This document shows, piece by piece, positions 55,216 to 61,194 of a stretch of DNA of 64,000 nt; positions within the stretch are counted from its first letter, which is position 1; each line of letters starts with the position of its first letter. Location: contig JANQSJ010000010.1 of assembly GCA_028284065.1 (NCBI GenBank), forward strand, positions 422,618 to 486,617. Reading direction: 5' to 3'. Made by a program: the position numbers and the translations under genes. The notes under the pieces are model-generated. The model saw nothing but the letters and a program-made list of their open reading frames with translations, was not told the origin of the DNA and did no database searches. Source of the stretch: Parvularculaceae bacterium (lineage in GTDB: Bacteria; Pseudomonadota; Alphaproteobacteria; Caulobacterales; Parvularculaceae).

Positions 55216-58200
55216 CTAGTTCTGGCCGCCCGCTTCGGGGATCAGCCCTGCGCCGGCTGTCGGCCCGCCGGCCGCCACGACCGCCGCCTCAAAGGCCGGC
55301 GCCGTCTCATCCTGCAGTTTGACGAGACGCTTGCGTATGTTCGCAAAGTCCTCTTCTGCGTAGGTCAAGACGTCCCGATGAGTGTTTGTCGGCCCATAGG
55401 TGGCGTTGCCGACCCCAACGGCGACCTTGCTAAGTCGGCTCAGCACCGTCTGCGGCGCTTCCTGACCGACCTCAGCCATCGCCTGATTGCCGGCCATCAG
55501 CTCAACGATATCGTCGAGCTCGGTCTTCATCGCCGACCACTGGATGTCGAGTTCAGCCGGCGCGGAGCGCGTCCGCGACAGCGCGACTTTCAGATCGTCG
55601 AGCCGCCCCTCGAGCCGCTCGACGGCGTCCCCCGCCGCACTGACGCCGCGGTCGAGCCGGGCGACCCGCTCCCAGAACGCCACAACCTCGTCGATCGCGG
55701 CGCCGGCGAGCGCGCCTTCGCGCAGGCGCTCCACCTTGAACGGCTGCGGACCTACGAGCTCCTTCGTTTCGCCGCGCACGCGCGTCGACAGCGAAACAGT
55801 GTAGTCGCCCGGCGCGGCCAGGAAACCGCGGACCTGGTCATCCGGCAATTCCGCGCCTCCTGACACCGCAGACATGGGCGGATAGCGCAGATCCCAGGTC
55901 ACCCTGTGGAAGCCCTTGCCGGTCGGTCCATCAATCCGGCGCACCACCTCGCCCGCCTTGTTGCGCACGGTGAGCCAGACTTTCGGATCTTCCTCCCGGC
56001 GTTCGGCTTCCGCCGCCTCGAAGCCTTGGAAGGGAGTGTCCTCTCCGGCTTCGATCTTCTTTTTTTCCGTCTCCTGACGGGTTTCCTCGAGCGTCTTGAG
56101 GCCCTCCTTCAGATAGTAAGTGAAGGTGGCGCCGTAAGGCGGGTTCGGGGCGCGGAAGTACCCATGCCCCTGGCTGCCCTGCTCGCTGAATGCGAGCGGA
56201 TGCTCCTCCATGTACCACCACGCCTTGCGGCCGGCGAAGAGATGCGCCGGCTTTTCAAGCGCCGCCGCATCGACATTTCTGAGCGCGGAAAAATCATCGA
56301 GGATGAAGAAGCCCCGCCCGAAGCTCGCCGCGACGACATCGTTCTCTCGCCGCTGAATGGTGACGTCACGGAAAGAGATCGTCGGCGCGCCGCCTTCAAG
56401 CTGCACCCAGCTTGCGCCGGCGTCCACCGTGAAGAACAGGCCGAATTCCGTGGCGAGGAAGAAGAGGTCCTTATCCACATGATCCTGGACGATACGCCAG
56501 ACGAGATGGCGCTCGGGCAGGTCCCCGACCATGGCTGACCATGTGCGGCCATAGTCCGTACTCTTGTAGAGATACGGCTTGAAGTCGCCGTATTTGTGAT
56601 TATCGAGCGCCACATAGACCGTCGCCGGGTCATGAAGATCAGCGCGGATGTCATTGACAAACGCCGTGTCCGGCACGCCCGGCAGGCCGCCGACCGGAAC
56701 CTTGCTCCAAGTCTTGCCGCCGTCCCTCGTCGTCTGGATGATCCCATCATCCGTACCGATATAAAGTACGTTCTCGTCGAGCGGCGATTCGCCAATCGAG
56801 GTGATAGTGTTGTACTGGGACATGGCGAGAAAATCCCAACCGGCGTCCCACGACCATTGCCGGCCCATCAGCGGCAGGAGCATCCGGTCTTCATTGCGCG
56901 TCAGATCGCCGGAAATCGCCGTCCACGTGTCGCCGCGATCGTCCGACCGCCATAGCCTTTGGGAGGCGAAATAGATCCGCTTCGGGTCATGGCGCGAGAC
57001 ATAGATCGGCGAGTCCCAGTTGAAGCGTTCCGCCGGTTCGCCGGGCTTCGGCTGCGGCTGGATGTGGACGAACTCGCCGGTCGTGCGGTCGACGCGAACG
57101 AGGTTTCCTTCCTGCCACTCCGCATACATAATGTCCGGGTTCCCCGGCTCCGTCGCCGACTGGTGGCCATCCGCGAAGAGAGTCACGAACCAGTCGGAAT
57201 TGCGGATGCCATGCCGATTCAACGTTCGCGAAGGGCCTCCTTGCGAGTTGTTGTCCTGGGTGCCGCCATAGACGTTGTAGAATGGCTCCGCGTCGTCGAC
57301 CGCGACCTTGTAGAACTGCGTCAGCGGAAGATTGTCGATAAAGCGCCAGGTTTTCTCCCCATCGAGGCTTTCATAGAGCCCGCCGTCGGACCCGAACAGA
57401 ATGAAATCAGGGTCCGTCGGATGGAAGGCGATGGCGTGATCGTCGGAGTGCTTATACTCCATGTTCACGCCACTGAACGTCTTGCCGCCATCTTCGGATA
57501 CTTGGCTGTAATTGCTGACGAGGTAGATTTTATCGAACTGGTGCGGGTGAGCGTAGAGCTCCTGATAATAATGCGGGCCGGTCCCGCCGCTGACGGTGTC
57601 GGACATCTTGGTCCATGACGCGCCGCGATCGGCCGACCGCCACACGCCGCCGGAGCGGCGATTGGTCTCAATCGCCGCATAAAGGACATCAGGGTCCTGA
57701 GGGGAGATCGCGAGGCCGATCTTGCCCATGTCGCCATCGGGCAGACCTTTTGTCAGCTCTTCCCAGGTTTCGCCGCCATCGCTCGAAACATGGATGCCGC
57801 TTTCTGGTCCCCCCGCCATATAGGCCGCAACGGTCCGGTGGCGCTGCCAGGTTGCGGCGTAAATGCGGTCGGGATCGCGGGGATCAATGACAATGTCGGT
57901 AACGCCGGTCCATTCGCCTTTCGACAGTACGTTCTTCCATGTCTTGCCGCCGTCCGTCGTTTTATAAAGGCCGCGTTCCCCGCCAGATGACCAGAGCGGC
58001 CCCTGAGCCGCCACCCAGACGGTGTTCGAATCCTCGGGGTGGACGATGATGGTCGAGATGTGCTCGGACTTTTCGAGCCCAAGCTTCTCCCAACTCTCGC
58101 CGCCATCTTTGGAGCGATAAACGCCGTCGCCGAACGCGATATGTCGGCCGCCATGGTTTTCGCCGGAGCCCACCCAGATTGTATGCGGATTGTTCGGGTC

Positions 58201-58545
58201 AAGCGTCACGTCGCCGATGGAATACGACCCCTGTCCGTCAAAAATTGACTCCCAGGTCGTGCCGGCGTTTTCGGTCTTCCAGACGCCGCCGGAGCCGACG
58301 CCAATGTACCAGTTTGAGGGGTCTTCAGGATTGATGGCGATATCGGCGATCCTGCCCGACATGAAGGCGGGTCCAATGCCGCGAAGCTTAAGGCCCTTGA
58401 AGACCTCAGCCGGCATTCTGGCCTCTTCTTGCGCAGCGCCGGCGTCACTCGCCGACACCTGCGCCGCCGCTCCACCGAGCAGGCACATGGCTGCGGCCGG
58501 GCCAACCCAAAAGGCCGCCGATATTTTAATCCTGATACGTTTCAT
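55216..58545 (-). CDS. Large secreted Asp-box (VPS10/sortilin-like) beta-propeller protein
   Basis: 1109-aa exported protein with a signal peptide (residues about 1-28, AAFWVGPAAAMCLLGGAAAQ). It carries about eleven Asp-box repeats (S/T-x-D-x-G-x-T-W type), for example KTENAGTTW, RSKDGGESW, KTTDGGKTW, VSSDGGETW, RSADRGASW, RSDDRGDTW, TTRDGGKTW and KSTDYGRTW, making one or two seven-plus-bladed propellers, as in proteins annotated glycosyl-hydrolase BNR or sortilin-like. A helical C-terminal third follows (ERVARLDRGVSAAGDAVERLEGRLDDL). No catalytic pair is evident; peptide binding or polysaccharide contact are both possible. GGGTAGAG precedes ATG 58545. Confidence 0.85.
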   Translation of the reverse strand: MKRIRIKISAAFWVGPAAAMCLLGGAAAQVSASDAGAAQEEARMPAEVFKGLKLRGIGPAFMSGRIADIAINPEDPSNWYIGVGSGGVWKTENAGTTWESIFDGQGSYSIGDVTLDPNNPHTIWVGSGENHGGRHIAFGDGVYRSKDGGESWEKLGLEKSEHISTIIVHPEDSNTVWVAAQGPLWSSGGERGLYKTTDGGKTWKNVLSKGEWTGVTDIVIDPRDPDRIYAATWQRHRTVAAYMAGGPESGIHVSSDGGETWEELTKGLPDGDMGKIGLAISPQDPDVLYAAIETNRRSGGVWRSADRGASWTKMSDTVSGGTGPHYYQELYAHPHQFDKIYLVSNYSQVSEDGGKTFSGVNMEYKHSDDHAIAFHPTDPDFILFGSDGGLYESLDGEKTWRFIDNLPLTQFYKVAVDDAEPFYNVYGGTQDNNSQGGPSRTLNRHGIRNSDWFVTLFADGHQSATEPGNPDIMYAEWQEGNLVRVDRTTGEFVHIQPQPKPGEPAERFNWDSPIYVSRHDPKRIYFASQRLWRSDDRGDTWTAISGDLTRNEDRMLLPLMGRQWSWDAGWDFLAMSQYNTITSIGESPLDENVLYIGTDDGIIQTTRDGGKTWSKVPVGGLPGVPDTAFVNDIRADLHDPATVYVALDNHKYGDFKPYLYKSTDYGRTWSAMVGDLPERHLVWRIVQDHVDKDLFFLATEFGLFFTVDAGASWVQLEGGAPTISFRDVTIQRRENDVVAASFGRGFFILDDFSALRNVDAAALEKPAHLFAGRKAWWYMEEHPLAFSEQGSQGHGYFRAPNPPYGATFTYYLKEGLKTLEETRQETEKKKIEAGEDTPFQGFEAAEAERREEDPKVWLTVRNKAGEVVRRIDGPTGKGFHRVTWDLRYPPMSAVSGGAELPDDQVRGFLAAPGDYTVSLSTRVRGETKELVGPQPFKVERLREGALAGAAIDEVVAFWERVARLDRGVSAAGDAVERLEGRLDDLKVALSRTRSAPAELDIQWSAMKTELDDIVELMAGNQAMAEVGQEAPQTVLSRLSKVAVGVGNATYGPTNTHRDVLTYAEEDFANIRKRLVKLQDETAPAFEAAVVAAGGPTAGAGLIPEAGGQN

Positions 58546-58919
58546 CTCTACCCTTTTCCCTCGATGTCGGCGCGAAAGTCGCGCCACTTGCCGCAATGCG
58601 CCTGGAAGCGCGGCCACTCGGCCGGCACGCCATGGCGTCGACGCTCCAAGCGCGCCCCAGGCAGGCGCGGCTTCGCCAATCGTTACACAGCCTGCGCCGG
58701 CAAGACGAGCAGTACGCCCACTGAGGGTAAGAAGACGTTAAGTTTCCCGTAATCCGCGCACATCGCCGGTACGACGCGCCTCCTATTGCGCCCCGTGCGA
58801 GCGCGGCACGATAGGCGCACTGATTGCACATTATTCTTCAGAGAGCGAGCGCCGCGCCCACGCGCATCGCTGTTGCCAAGCGCCGGGGCGCTCGCTAGAA
58901 GCCGCGTCTTCGGGTGCCT
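58546..58919. other. Intergenic region with no identified feature
   Basis: About 370 bases upstream of both the Asp-box gene (leftward) and tRNA-Thr (rightward). Short frames occur but none has a ribosome site plus plausible protein. It must hold the two divergent promoters; none is clear by eye. Confidence 0.5.
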
Positions 58920-58994
<75 letters not shown>

Positions 58995-59884: not shown

Positions 59885-61192
59885 CTATGCGGCGTCTGCC
59901 GCGATTTCGTTCAAAACAAGCTCGCCTGCGCCGGCGCTTCCGCGCGCGGCAAGCCGAGCCGAAAGAGTGCGGATCGCATACGCCGCTTGAAGCGGGACAA
60001 CTCCATTTCCGAGCATCCGAAGTCGGTCCACGCGACCAATGTCCAAGCCGGTGGCCACCCCATCAGCCATTCGACGAAAAGCGGGTTCAAGCTCCGGCGA
60101 CTCGGCGAGACATTCTCGCCATTCTGCGAAGTCAGATGGGCCTGGCGGGAAAAGTCCGCCGTATCTGTCGATAGGCATCCCCCGCCCCCTGCTGGATTGT
60201 TCCGATTGCCCGCACCTCGAGGACTGTGTTTGGCTGTCGGCGTACTCCAGAGCTCTTGCGCCTGTATCGCTAGCGGTTTGCCCGCGCCGTTGCCGTTGCC
60301 GTGTTTCGCTTTGAGTTGTGACGCCCGAGCGTTCCAACTCTCTGGTGTCTCGCCGTCGTTGGGATTGCCCGCAGCTGGTGTCGCCCACATGTCTCGCGCC
60401 TGCCCCTCGAGGGTGGGTCGCTCCTTGTCCGGATCGCCCTCGTCTCGGGTATAACTGCCCCTCGACACTCGAGGCGTCTTCCACAACATCGCGATTGTCG
60501 TCAGACTTTCCTGAGAGCCCTTCTTCCCCCGGCTCCGATCTTGAAATCCGAGCCGCGGTTCGTGTGCCGCCGGCGTTGGCCAATTGATTGCCGCGCCCGT
60601 CAACGGCATTGAGCCGGTCCCGAACTTCTGGTTGGATCCGCCCTTTTCGCCATCGCTCGCGATCGGCGACGGCCATGATGAAGACGCGCTTTCTTTGATG
60701 CGACGCGCCAACTTCTGACGCGCTGAACAGTCCGCCCTCCACGAGGAAACCAAGTCTTTGTAGGTCACGGACGACACGCTCTGCGCCGGCAATTTCGTCC
60801 TCGCCAGCAGACAGCATTCCCTCGACGTTTTCGATGAGGACGCCCCATGCGCCGGACTGCACGATGATGCGTCGGGTTGGCGACCAGAGGTCTCGCTCGT
60901 CATTGCTTCCGAGCTTTCGGCCGGCGGCTGAATGCGGCTGACACGGGATGCCGCCAATGACGAAATCCACCGCACCACGCCACGGTCTGCCGTTGAAGCT
61001 GGTGACATCCGACCAGATAGGCGCGTCAGCCATGAGACCTTGCGCAATCGCGTCGACCAAGTGCGCGACGGCGAAGGCTTCCCTCTCCACGTAACAGACC
61101 GCTCGAGCATCCGAGAAAGCGAGCTCGAATCCAAGGTCGAGCCCGCCACCTCCGGTACAGAGGCTAATGACGTTGAGGGGATGTGTAGCCAC
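59885..61192 (-). CDS. DNA (cytosine-5)-methyltransferase, phage-type
   Basis: C5-cytosine methyltransferase of the phage/mobile-element type, likely protecting or marking element DNA. From GTG 61192: motif I SLCTGGGGLDLGF (10-22), motif IV GGIPCQPHS with catalytic Cys84, motif VI ENVEG (121-125), motif VIII GASHQRKRVF, then a long arginine/glycine/serine-rich variable region (about 180-360) and motif IX/X RLRMLGNGVVPLQAAYAIRTL near the end. No restriction partner is adjacent. A second frame is open across the whole gene. The start is uncertain: the frame continues upstream to an ATG at 61546, but this passes through a separate small gene at 61213-61386. Confidence 0.88.
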   Translation of the reverse strand: MATHPLNVISLCTGGGGLDLGFELAFSDARAVCYVEREAFAVAHLVDAIAQGLMADAPIWSDVTSFNGRPWRGAVDFVIGGIPCQPHSAAGRKLGSNDERDLWSPTRRIIVQSGAWGVLIENVEGMLSAGEDEIAGAERVVRDLQRLGFLVEGGLFSASEVGASHQRKRVFIMAVADRERWRKGRIQPEVRDRLNAVDGRGNQLANAGGTRTAARISRSEPGEEGLSGKSDDNRDVVEDASSVEGQLYPRRGRSGQGATHPRGAGARHVGDTSCGQSQRRRDTRELERSGVTTQSETRQRQRRGQTASDTGARALEYADSQTQSSRCGQSEQSSRGRGMPIDRYGGLFPPGPSDFAEWRECLAESPELEPAFRRMADGVATGLDIGRVDRLRMLGNGVVPLQAAYAIRTLSARLAARGSAGAGELVLNEIAADAA

Positions 61193-61194
61193 AC
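59911..61194 (-). CDS. Overlapping +1-frame open reading frame within the methyltransferase gene
   Basis: A 427-codon frame on the same strand as the methyltransferase, open throughout. Its first 165 residues look like shadow sequence, but the rest shows a repeated W-x-[ST]-P motif (WPSP 174, WPTP 205, WKTP 238, WATP 270, WSTP 316) and a C-terminus LNPLFVEWLMGWPPAWT (369-385) that resembles C-termini annotated on phage methyltransferase-like proteins. It may be expressed by frameshift or internal start, or be a by-product of constraint in the main frame. No own ribosome site was found. Confidence 0.3.
   Translation of the reverse strand: MWLHIPSTSLASVPEVAGSTLDSSSLSRMLERSVTWRGKPSPSRTWSTRLRKVSWLTRLSGRMSPASTADRGVVRWISSLAASRVSRIQPPAESSEAMTSETSGRQPDASSCSPAHGASSSKTSRECCLLARTKLPAQSVSSVTYKDLVSSWRADCSARQKLARRIKESASSSWPSPIASDGEKGGSNQKFGTGSMPLTGAAINWPTPAAHEPRLGFQDRSRGKKGSQESLTTIAMLWKTPRVSRGSYTRDEGDPDKERPTLEGQARDMWATPAAGNPNDGETPESWNARASQLKAKHGNGNGAGKPLAIQAQELWSTPTAKHSPRGAGNRNNPAGGGGCLSTDTADFSRQAHLTSQNGENVSPSRRSLNPLFVEWLMGWPPAWTLVAWTDFGCSEMELSRFKRRMRSALFRLGLPRAEAPAQASLF

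Follow-up and report, generated by a model that had tools for sequence, protein, structure and literature searches.

The small-subunit gene of M.EcoHK31I, a cytosine-5 DNA methyltransferase (C5-MTase), lies in another frame inside the gene of the large subunit, and the multispecific C5-MTases of Bacillus phages carry, on a single chain read in a single frame, a number of exchangeable recognition units that lie between motifs VIII and IX; to our knowledge, no WxTP motif is known in the latter. M.EcoHK31I (YGGCCR) is a two-polypeptide enzyme described as carrying motifs I-VIII and X in the large subunit and motif IX alone in the small one, the predicted recognition domain being placed in the large subunit (PMC3404938). 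The present analysis concerns a C5-MTase locus in 64,000 nucleotides of DNA from a Parvularculaceae bacterium (assembly GCA_028284065.1, contig JANQSJ010000010.1, positions 422,618 to 486,617 of the forward strand; the whole stretch is called the window), in which two same-strand reading frames, alpha and beta, cover almost the same DNA. This locus very probably encodes a nested two-subunit C5-MTase, whose almost fully overlapping alpha and beta proteins would begin at nearly coincident starts and are predicted to assemble. A preliminary description of this DNA overlooked that the two frames carry complementary parts of one enzyme, and searches of the open-licence PubMed Central literature found no account of phage methyltransferases with subunits nested in a second frame.

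Two frames with complementary motifs

The alpha frame matches the C5-MTase catalytic domain PF00145 over residues 7-186 (E 1.6e-24), with motifs I, IV (PCQ), VI (ENV) and VIII all present; the labels of these motifs, and of IX and X, are those that we take from general knowledge of C5-MTases. Beta lies in the +1 frame relative to alpha, starting at a GTG located 2 nucleotides upstream of the alpha GTG, and remains open for 427 codons, as the preliminary description had read it; the five spaced WxTP motifs (residues 174, 205, 238, 270 and 316) and the sequence LNPLFVEWLMGWPPAWT that it had placed in this frame are likewise present. Over the five WxTP sites alpha reads MAVADR, LANAGG, VEDASS, VGDTSC and LEYADS. 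The same description was wrong in crediting the main frame with complete motifs I-X, since a recognisable motif IX was not found in alpha and is supplied by beta, after the five WxTP cassettes. Profile searches with beta matched phrog_27243 (E 2.7e-22) and phrog_1008 (E 1.4e-11). The features of the locus are as follows, cassette families being given under strict and loose cut-offs.

59885..61192, minus strand: alpha, the C5-MTase catalytic frame with motifs I-VIII and X; 435 amino acids, GTG start, PF00145
59911..61194, minus strand: beta, the +1 frame relative to alpha, with WxTP cassettes and motif IX; 427 amino acids, GTG start
61190..61194, minus strand: overlapping starts GTGTG (beta GTG 61194-61192, alpha GTG 61192-61190)
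61142..61165, minus strand: motif I (SLCTGGGG), alpha
60938..60955, minus strand: motif IV (GGIPCQ, with the catalytic Cys), alpha
60824..60838, minus strand: motif VI (ENV), alpha
60686..60700, minus strand: motif VIII (HQRKR), alpha
60583..60675, minus strand: beta cassette 1 (WPSP...), of a strict family of 19 found at ordinal positions 1-4
60484..60582, minus strand: beta cassette 2 (WPTP...), family of 4 (strict) or 10 (loose)
60388..60483, minus strand: beta cassette 3 (WKTP...), family of 2 (strict) or 15 (loose)
60250..60387, minus strand: beta cassette 4 (WATP...), family of 2 (strict) or 10 (loose)
60091..60249, minus strand: beta cassette 5 (WSTP...) and linker, without a relative at the strict or the loose cut-off
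60043..60099, minus strand: motif IX (RRSLNPLFVEWLMGWPPAW), beta; alpha reads SPELEPAFRRMADGVATGLD over the same DNA
59993..60013, minus strand: motif X (LGNGVVP), alpha; alpha matches phrog_1008 positions 286-323 (E 2.7e-6)

In the mechanism that this layout suggests, both frames would be translated through alternative initiation at the nearly coincident starts. Alpha has catalytic motifs I-VIII and, beyond the variable region, which it crosses in frame, motif X; its amino acids in that region are hardly better conserved than those of the unused frame. On the same DNA, beta has the WxTP cassettes, at the place where C5-MTases carry their target-recognition domain, and then motif IX. The two proteins would assemble as a heterodimer forming one cytosine-5 DNA methyltransferase, the cassettes acting as target-recognition units, possibly several. 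Homology strongly supports the view that beta is the subunit that provides recognition and motif IX.

Selection on the two frames

The frame under selection was studied with a codon-position test on three locus sets (one bacterial and two viral), in which differences in ungapped blastn blocks were sorted by codon position, with neither frame guiding the alignment. Strict boundaries for the cassette region kept 197 of 243 loci and dropped 46, of which 45 were without a recognisable motif VIII or IX and one was without a WxTP motif; an earlier, loose boundary had included some catalytic-domain sequence in a Rhodobacterales clade, and such segments are mixed into the largest cassette cluster obtained with it (619 of 915). 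The codon-position effect is larger with the strict boundaries than with the loose ones. Upstream of the cassettes, third-position variation in the three sets is 0.367, 0.400 and 0.267 for alpha versus 0.220, 0.222 and 0.134 for beta, and in the cassette region this order is reversed (alpha 0.211, 0.130 and 0.070 versus beta 0.322, 0.281 and 0.244). Variation at the four-fold sites of alpha in the bacterial set falls from 0.258 upstream to 0.033 in the variable region, so that the drop in synonymous variation across the overlap, proposed earlier as a check, is present. The V/N ratio is 0.13 in the bacterial set (0.09-0.16 over disjoint pairs); the viral sets give 0.46 (0.27-0.67) and 0.24 (0.08-0.77). 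Protein identity in the variable region is 0.889 for beta, 0.714 for alpha and 0.707 for the unused frame in the bacterial set; the respective values in the viral sets are 0.698, 0.581 and 0.523, and 0.796, 0.639 and 0.619. Such patterns of substitution indicate that in the variable region it is the beta frame on which selection acts.

At the C-terminal end of the gene both frames appear constrained, and conservation of the N-terminal half of beta is barely above that of the unused frame. The second frame is not limited to the variable region, to which the preliminary description had assigned its motifs; it is open, with a conserved start, across nearly the whole gene, but strong amino-acid constraint in it is seen only in the cassette and C-terminal regions. 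It is of note that residues 21-62 of beta are modeled as high-confidence helices (AF2 model m3fe906818394, block means 85-95), a possible small domain.

Openness of the second frame

At least 1239 homologs of beta were found among 7995 candidates scored; most of the 120 listed span its full length at approximately 35-50% identity, and the names shown among them are "hypothetical protein". A tblastn search of the phage collection with beta gave only two records at E 1e-5, and because matches there were few, viral contigs and genomes were used. A second frame of this length could nevertheless be a shadow, kept open by GC-rich (guanine- and cytosine-rich) codons and widely mis-annotated, as had been considered from the outset: stop density falls at high GC, and the N-terminal half of beta is rich in Ser, Pro and Arg. 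Moreover, the Synechococcus phages Yong-M2-251 (L001) and Ssp-JY39 (L002), which share identical 7,058-base DNA at the locus, are annotated with different frames, one record giving alpha as a cytosine-specific DNA methyltransferase and the other giving beta as a hypothetical protein.

This explanation is contradicted by several lines of evidence. Only 1 of 200 synonymous-codon shuffles that keep the alpha protein leaves the beta frame of the window open, and none of 200 does so when flank codon usage is employed. Both frames are open in nearly every one of 80 loci found with beta, and since that set is chosen by beta, the search was repeated with alpha proteins, using an alignment of these (A1) in place of alpha as a single-sequence query, which gave 1 locus. 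The best 80 viral and best 80 bacterial loci were retained, the +1 frame being scored as open when it covered at least 85% of the alpha open reading frame, counted from the first profile-matched residue. By this measure the +1 frame is open in 160/160 loci and the +2 frame in 0/160; the combination of a broken second frame and an intact main one, which the preliminary description had named as the telling counterexample, thus occurs in 0/160 at that level. The +1 frame is still open in the 23 of these loci whose GC content is 0.43-0.52, where the +2 frame has up to 56 stops, the latter number coming from L168 (GC 0.44), in which the longest +1 run covers 518 of 543. Of 129 stops in the +1 frame over the 160 loci, 128 lie no more than 15 codons from the start or 60 from the end, and the sole other one is in L240. 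In addition, synonymous sites of alpha are most constrained where the cassettes lie, as found in the codon-position test.

Two observations limit this evidence. The disjoint-pair intervals of the beta:alpha third-position ratio in the viral sets include 1 (0.86-2.30 and 0.80-5.41), so that the statistics are clearest for the bacterial set, where a single clade of Rhodobacterales is over-represented. Outside the alpha-first sets, among 30 loci (L086-L116) mostly found with phrog_1008, six are less than 85% open (L093, L096, L108, L112, L115 and L116), and in one of these, the nested locus L115, beta is interrupted by a single stop near its middle although alpha is open, which slightly lowers the odds of a nested two-subunit enzyme and slightly raises those of a shadow. 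Even so, the shadow explanation is rejected on the basis of the shuffles, the openness across loci and the codon-position constraint, and is considered the most improbable of those discussed here. The maintenance of both frames, together with the codon-position constraint, supports the dual coding that the preliminary description had offered as one possibility, and which, at the level of sequence, can be regarded as established.

Relatives of the nested locus

The distribution of the motifs in related loci bears on what the beta protein may be. In Gordonia phage Phinally gp5 (L004), motifs I-VIII, PTP cassettes, IX and X all lie in one frame; this single-chain class comprises 23 loci, Phinally gp5 and 22 viral contigs among L277-L324, and the model of one of them, L324, superposes on M.HhaI. 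In phage Twister (gp79/gp78), which is split, motifs I-VIII are in one frame and the cassettes, IX and X in another. The DNA methylase genes 78 and 77 of the cluster A4 mycobacteriophage Kampy, both reported to be transcribed (PMC4626039), are not equated here with the Twister genes.

Beta could be a real, translated protein that is overprinted on the gene without being a methyltransferase subunit. It has no Pfam match, comparison of its profile with Protein Data Bank (PDB) sequences gave nothing of use (best E 0.044), and its model has no structural match, which is not taken as a sign of a new fold; the homologs listed, as noted above, are called hypothetical. An unrelated protein is nonetheless very unlikely, given that PTP cassettes and motif IX lie in frame between VIII and X in 17 of the 23 single-chain loci, and that the alpha of the window is without a recognisable motif IX. 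Motifs IX and X, both in frame in the single-chain relatives, are here divided between beta (IX) and alpha (X). Stops in the +1 frame of the catalytic domain follow the same architectures: nested loci have 79 versus 488 expected, with none in 211/236, and the single-chain (57 versus 78) and split relatives (57 versus 73), which do not need a full-length beta, are nearer expectation.

A tree of 95 catalytic domains, with 61 nested rows sampled and 17 single-chain and 13 split among the rows, requires 11 changes of architecture by parsimony, and 0 of 200 label shuffles were as low. All 17 single-chain rows and 10 of the 13 split ones form one supported clade, and nested loci are found on both sides of the tree midpoint. 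Six loci (L288, L292, L296, L297, L321 and L323) show a fourth arrangement, for which the simple model does not account: IX and X are in frame 0, but cassettes are found in +1 alone.

Production of beta

Beta could also be reached through a programmed +1 frameshift after motif VIII, which would fuse the catalytic part to the second-frame cassettes and yield one protein with an alternative C-terminus. This mechanism, raised in the preliminary description, draws on the existence of single-chain relatives and on the fact that one +1 shift in the split relatives would yield a whole enzyme, the two Twister genes overlapping just there; methyltransferases are, in addition, named among phage genes known to contain a frameshift (PMC10885494). 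If so, the second frame would be needed only downstream of the shift site; upstream of the cassettes, however, the beta frame has 0 stops when the three sets are pooled, versus the 407 that codon shuffling predicts (the +2 frame has 862 versus 1039). Furthermore, among 240 loci examined, 219 have a conserved Trp (it is absent from 3, 12 and 6 in the three sets) and 215 of these have a start codon directly before it or one codon further upstream (77/77, 65/68 and 73/74). There is overlap between this Trp and the alpha start region, in many cases in the form ATGTGG. Neither an open upstream beta frame nor a conserved start would be needed for a shift at motif VIII, and in nested loci the product of such a shift would be without motif X, which stays in frame 0. 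On the evidence of the stops, the starts and motif X, frameshifting is unsupported and judged improbable, and alternative initiation at the overlapping starts would be the simplest way to produce the two subunits.

The cassette array

Under strict boundaries, 191 betas contain 666 cassettes, with 35 families of at least three members, of which 29 occur at more than one ordinal position. With looser clustering, a same-family repeat within one beta is seen in 1 of 96 distinct betas with at least two cassettes, versus 8.1 expected, a scarcity equalled in 2 of 2000 shuffles. The mosaic of rarely repeated cassettes fits what would be a set of different, exchangeable recognition units. A cassette in the +1 frame of L277, a Phinally-like contig, has a close match in frame 0 of L284; L277 carries two extra PTP cassettes in +1, upstream of five in-frame ones. 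Many Rhodobacterales genomes (L218-L276) have a near-uniform alpha of 372 amino acids across many genera, and in nine loci listed from this group the cassettes follow an almost constant order, in contrast to the shuffled arrays of phages. Beta of the window and of close relatives ends in a QxxLF tail (e.g. PPAQLALFG; 59914-59931, minus strand), which resembles a sliding-clamp binding motif; it is present in only 75 of 214 nested betas, so that no general role is claimed for it.

These observations lead to a broader proposal, to which we give even odds: that of a widespread phage and bacterial family in which alpha and a shuffled array of recognition cassettes are encoded on the same DNA, in two frames with near-coincident starts. 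The cassettes would recombine and diversify in beta, alpha having only to remain open; the result would be a multispecific two-subunit methyltransferase, encoded in a way that would be among the longest conserved cases of same-strand dual coding in prokaryotes. If beta is indeed a methyltransferase subunit, its homologs (at least 1239 among the 7995 scored), hypothetical where named, would turn out to be the specificity subunits that DNA methyltransferases of phages and bacteria had seemed to lack, and half of an enzyme is lost whenever gene calling retains a single frame per locus. The locus also offers a rare, testable case in which selection passes from one frame to the other within one gene, and its single-chain, split and nested relatives can show how such overlaps arise.

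Genomic context

The window ends at the end of the contig, and the methyltransferase locus lies near that end, 0.9 kb from a tRNA-Thr (58920-58994, plus strand), at which a mobile element is likely. The genes lying further to the left are of ordinary chromosomal kinds (EPSP synthase, histidinol dehydrogenase, Maf). A protein of 1133 amino acids with Sortilin-Vps10/BNR repeats (55216-58617, minus strand) adjoins the tRNA-Thr.

Comparison with known systems

A second frame within an actinophage DNA methylase gene is also found in the case of the ShiLan domain, which differs in being an inserted out-of-frame HNH homing endonuclease and not part of the methyltransferase (PMC11855218). Single-chain phage methyltransferases share with the window locus the catalytic domain, PTP cassettes and motifs IX and X, but have IX and X in frame 0 and stops in the +1 frame of the catalytic domain. 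In M.AquI, as in the Twister type, the C5-MTase is divided inside the variable region, but IX and X are both in the small subunit (PMC3404938), whereas the window locus keeps X in alpha. M.EcoHK31I is the nearest precedent, resembling the window locus in its motif assignment, with I-VIII and X but no IX in the chain corresponding to alpha, and IX in that corresponding to beta (PMC3404938). The two differ in that beta here covers almost all of the alpha gene, the two starts nearly coinciding, and in that the predicted recognition domain of M.EcoHK31I is said to lie in the large subunit (PMC3404938), whereas here the protein sequence of the variable region is conserved in beta, as a cassette array (0.889 versus 0.714 in alpha and 0.707 in the unused frame, bacterial set). 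Since the variable region is conserved in beta and not in alpha, the window locus is classed as a variant of the M.EcoHK31I type rather than a member of it.
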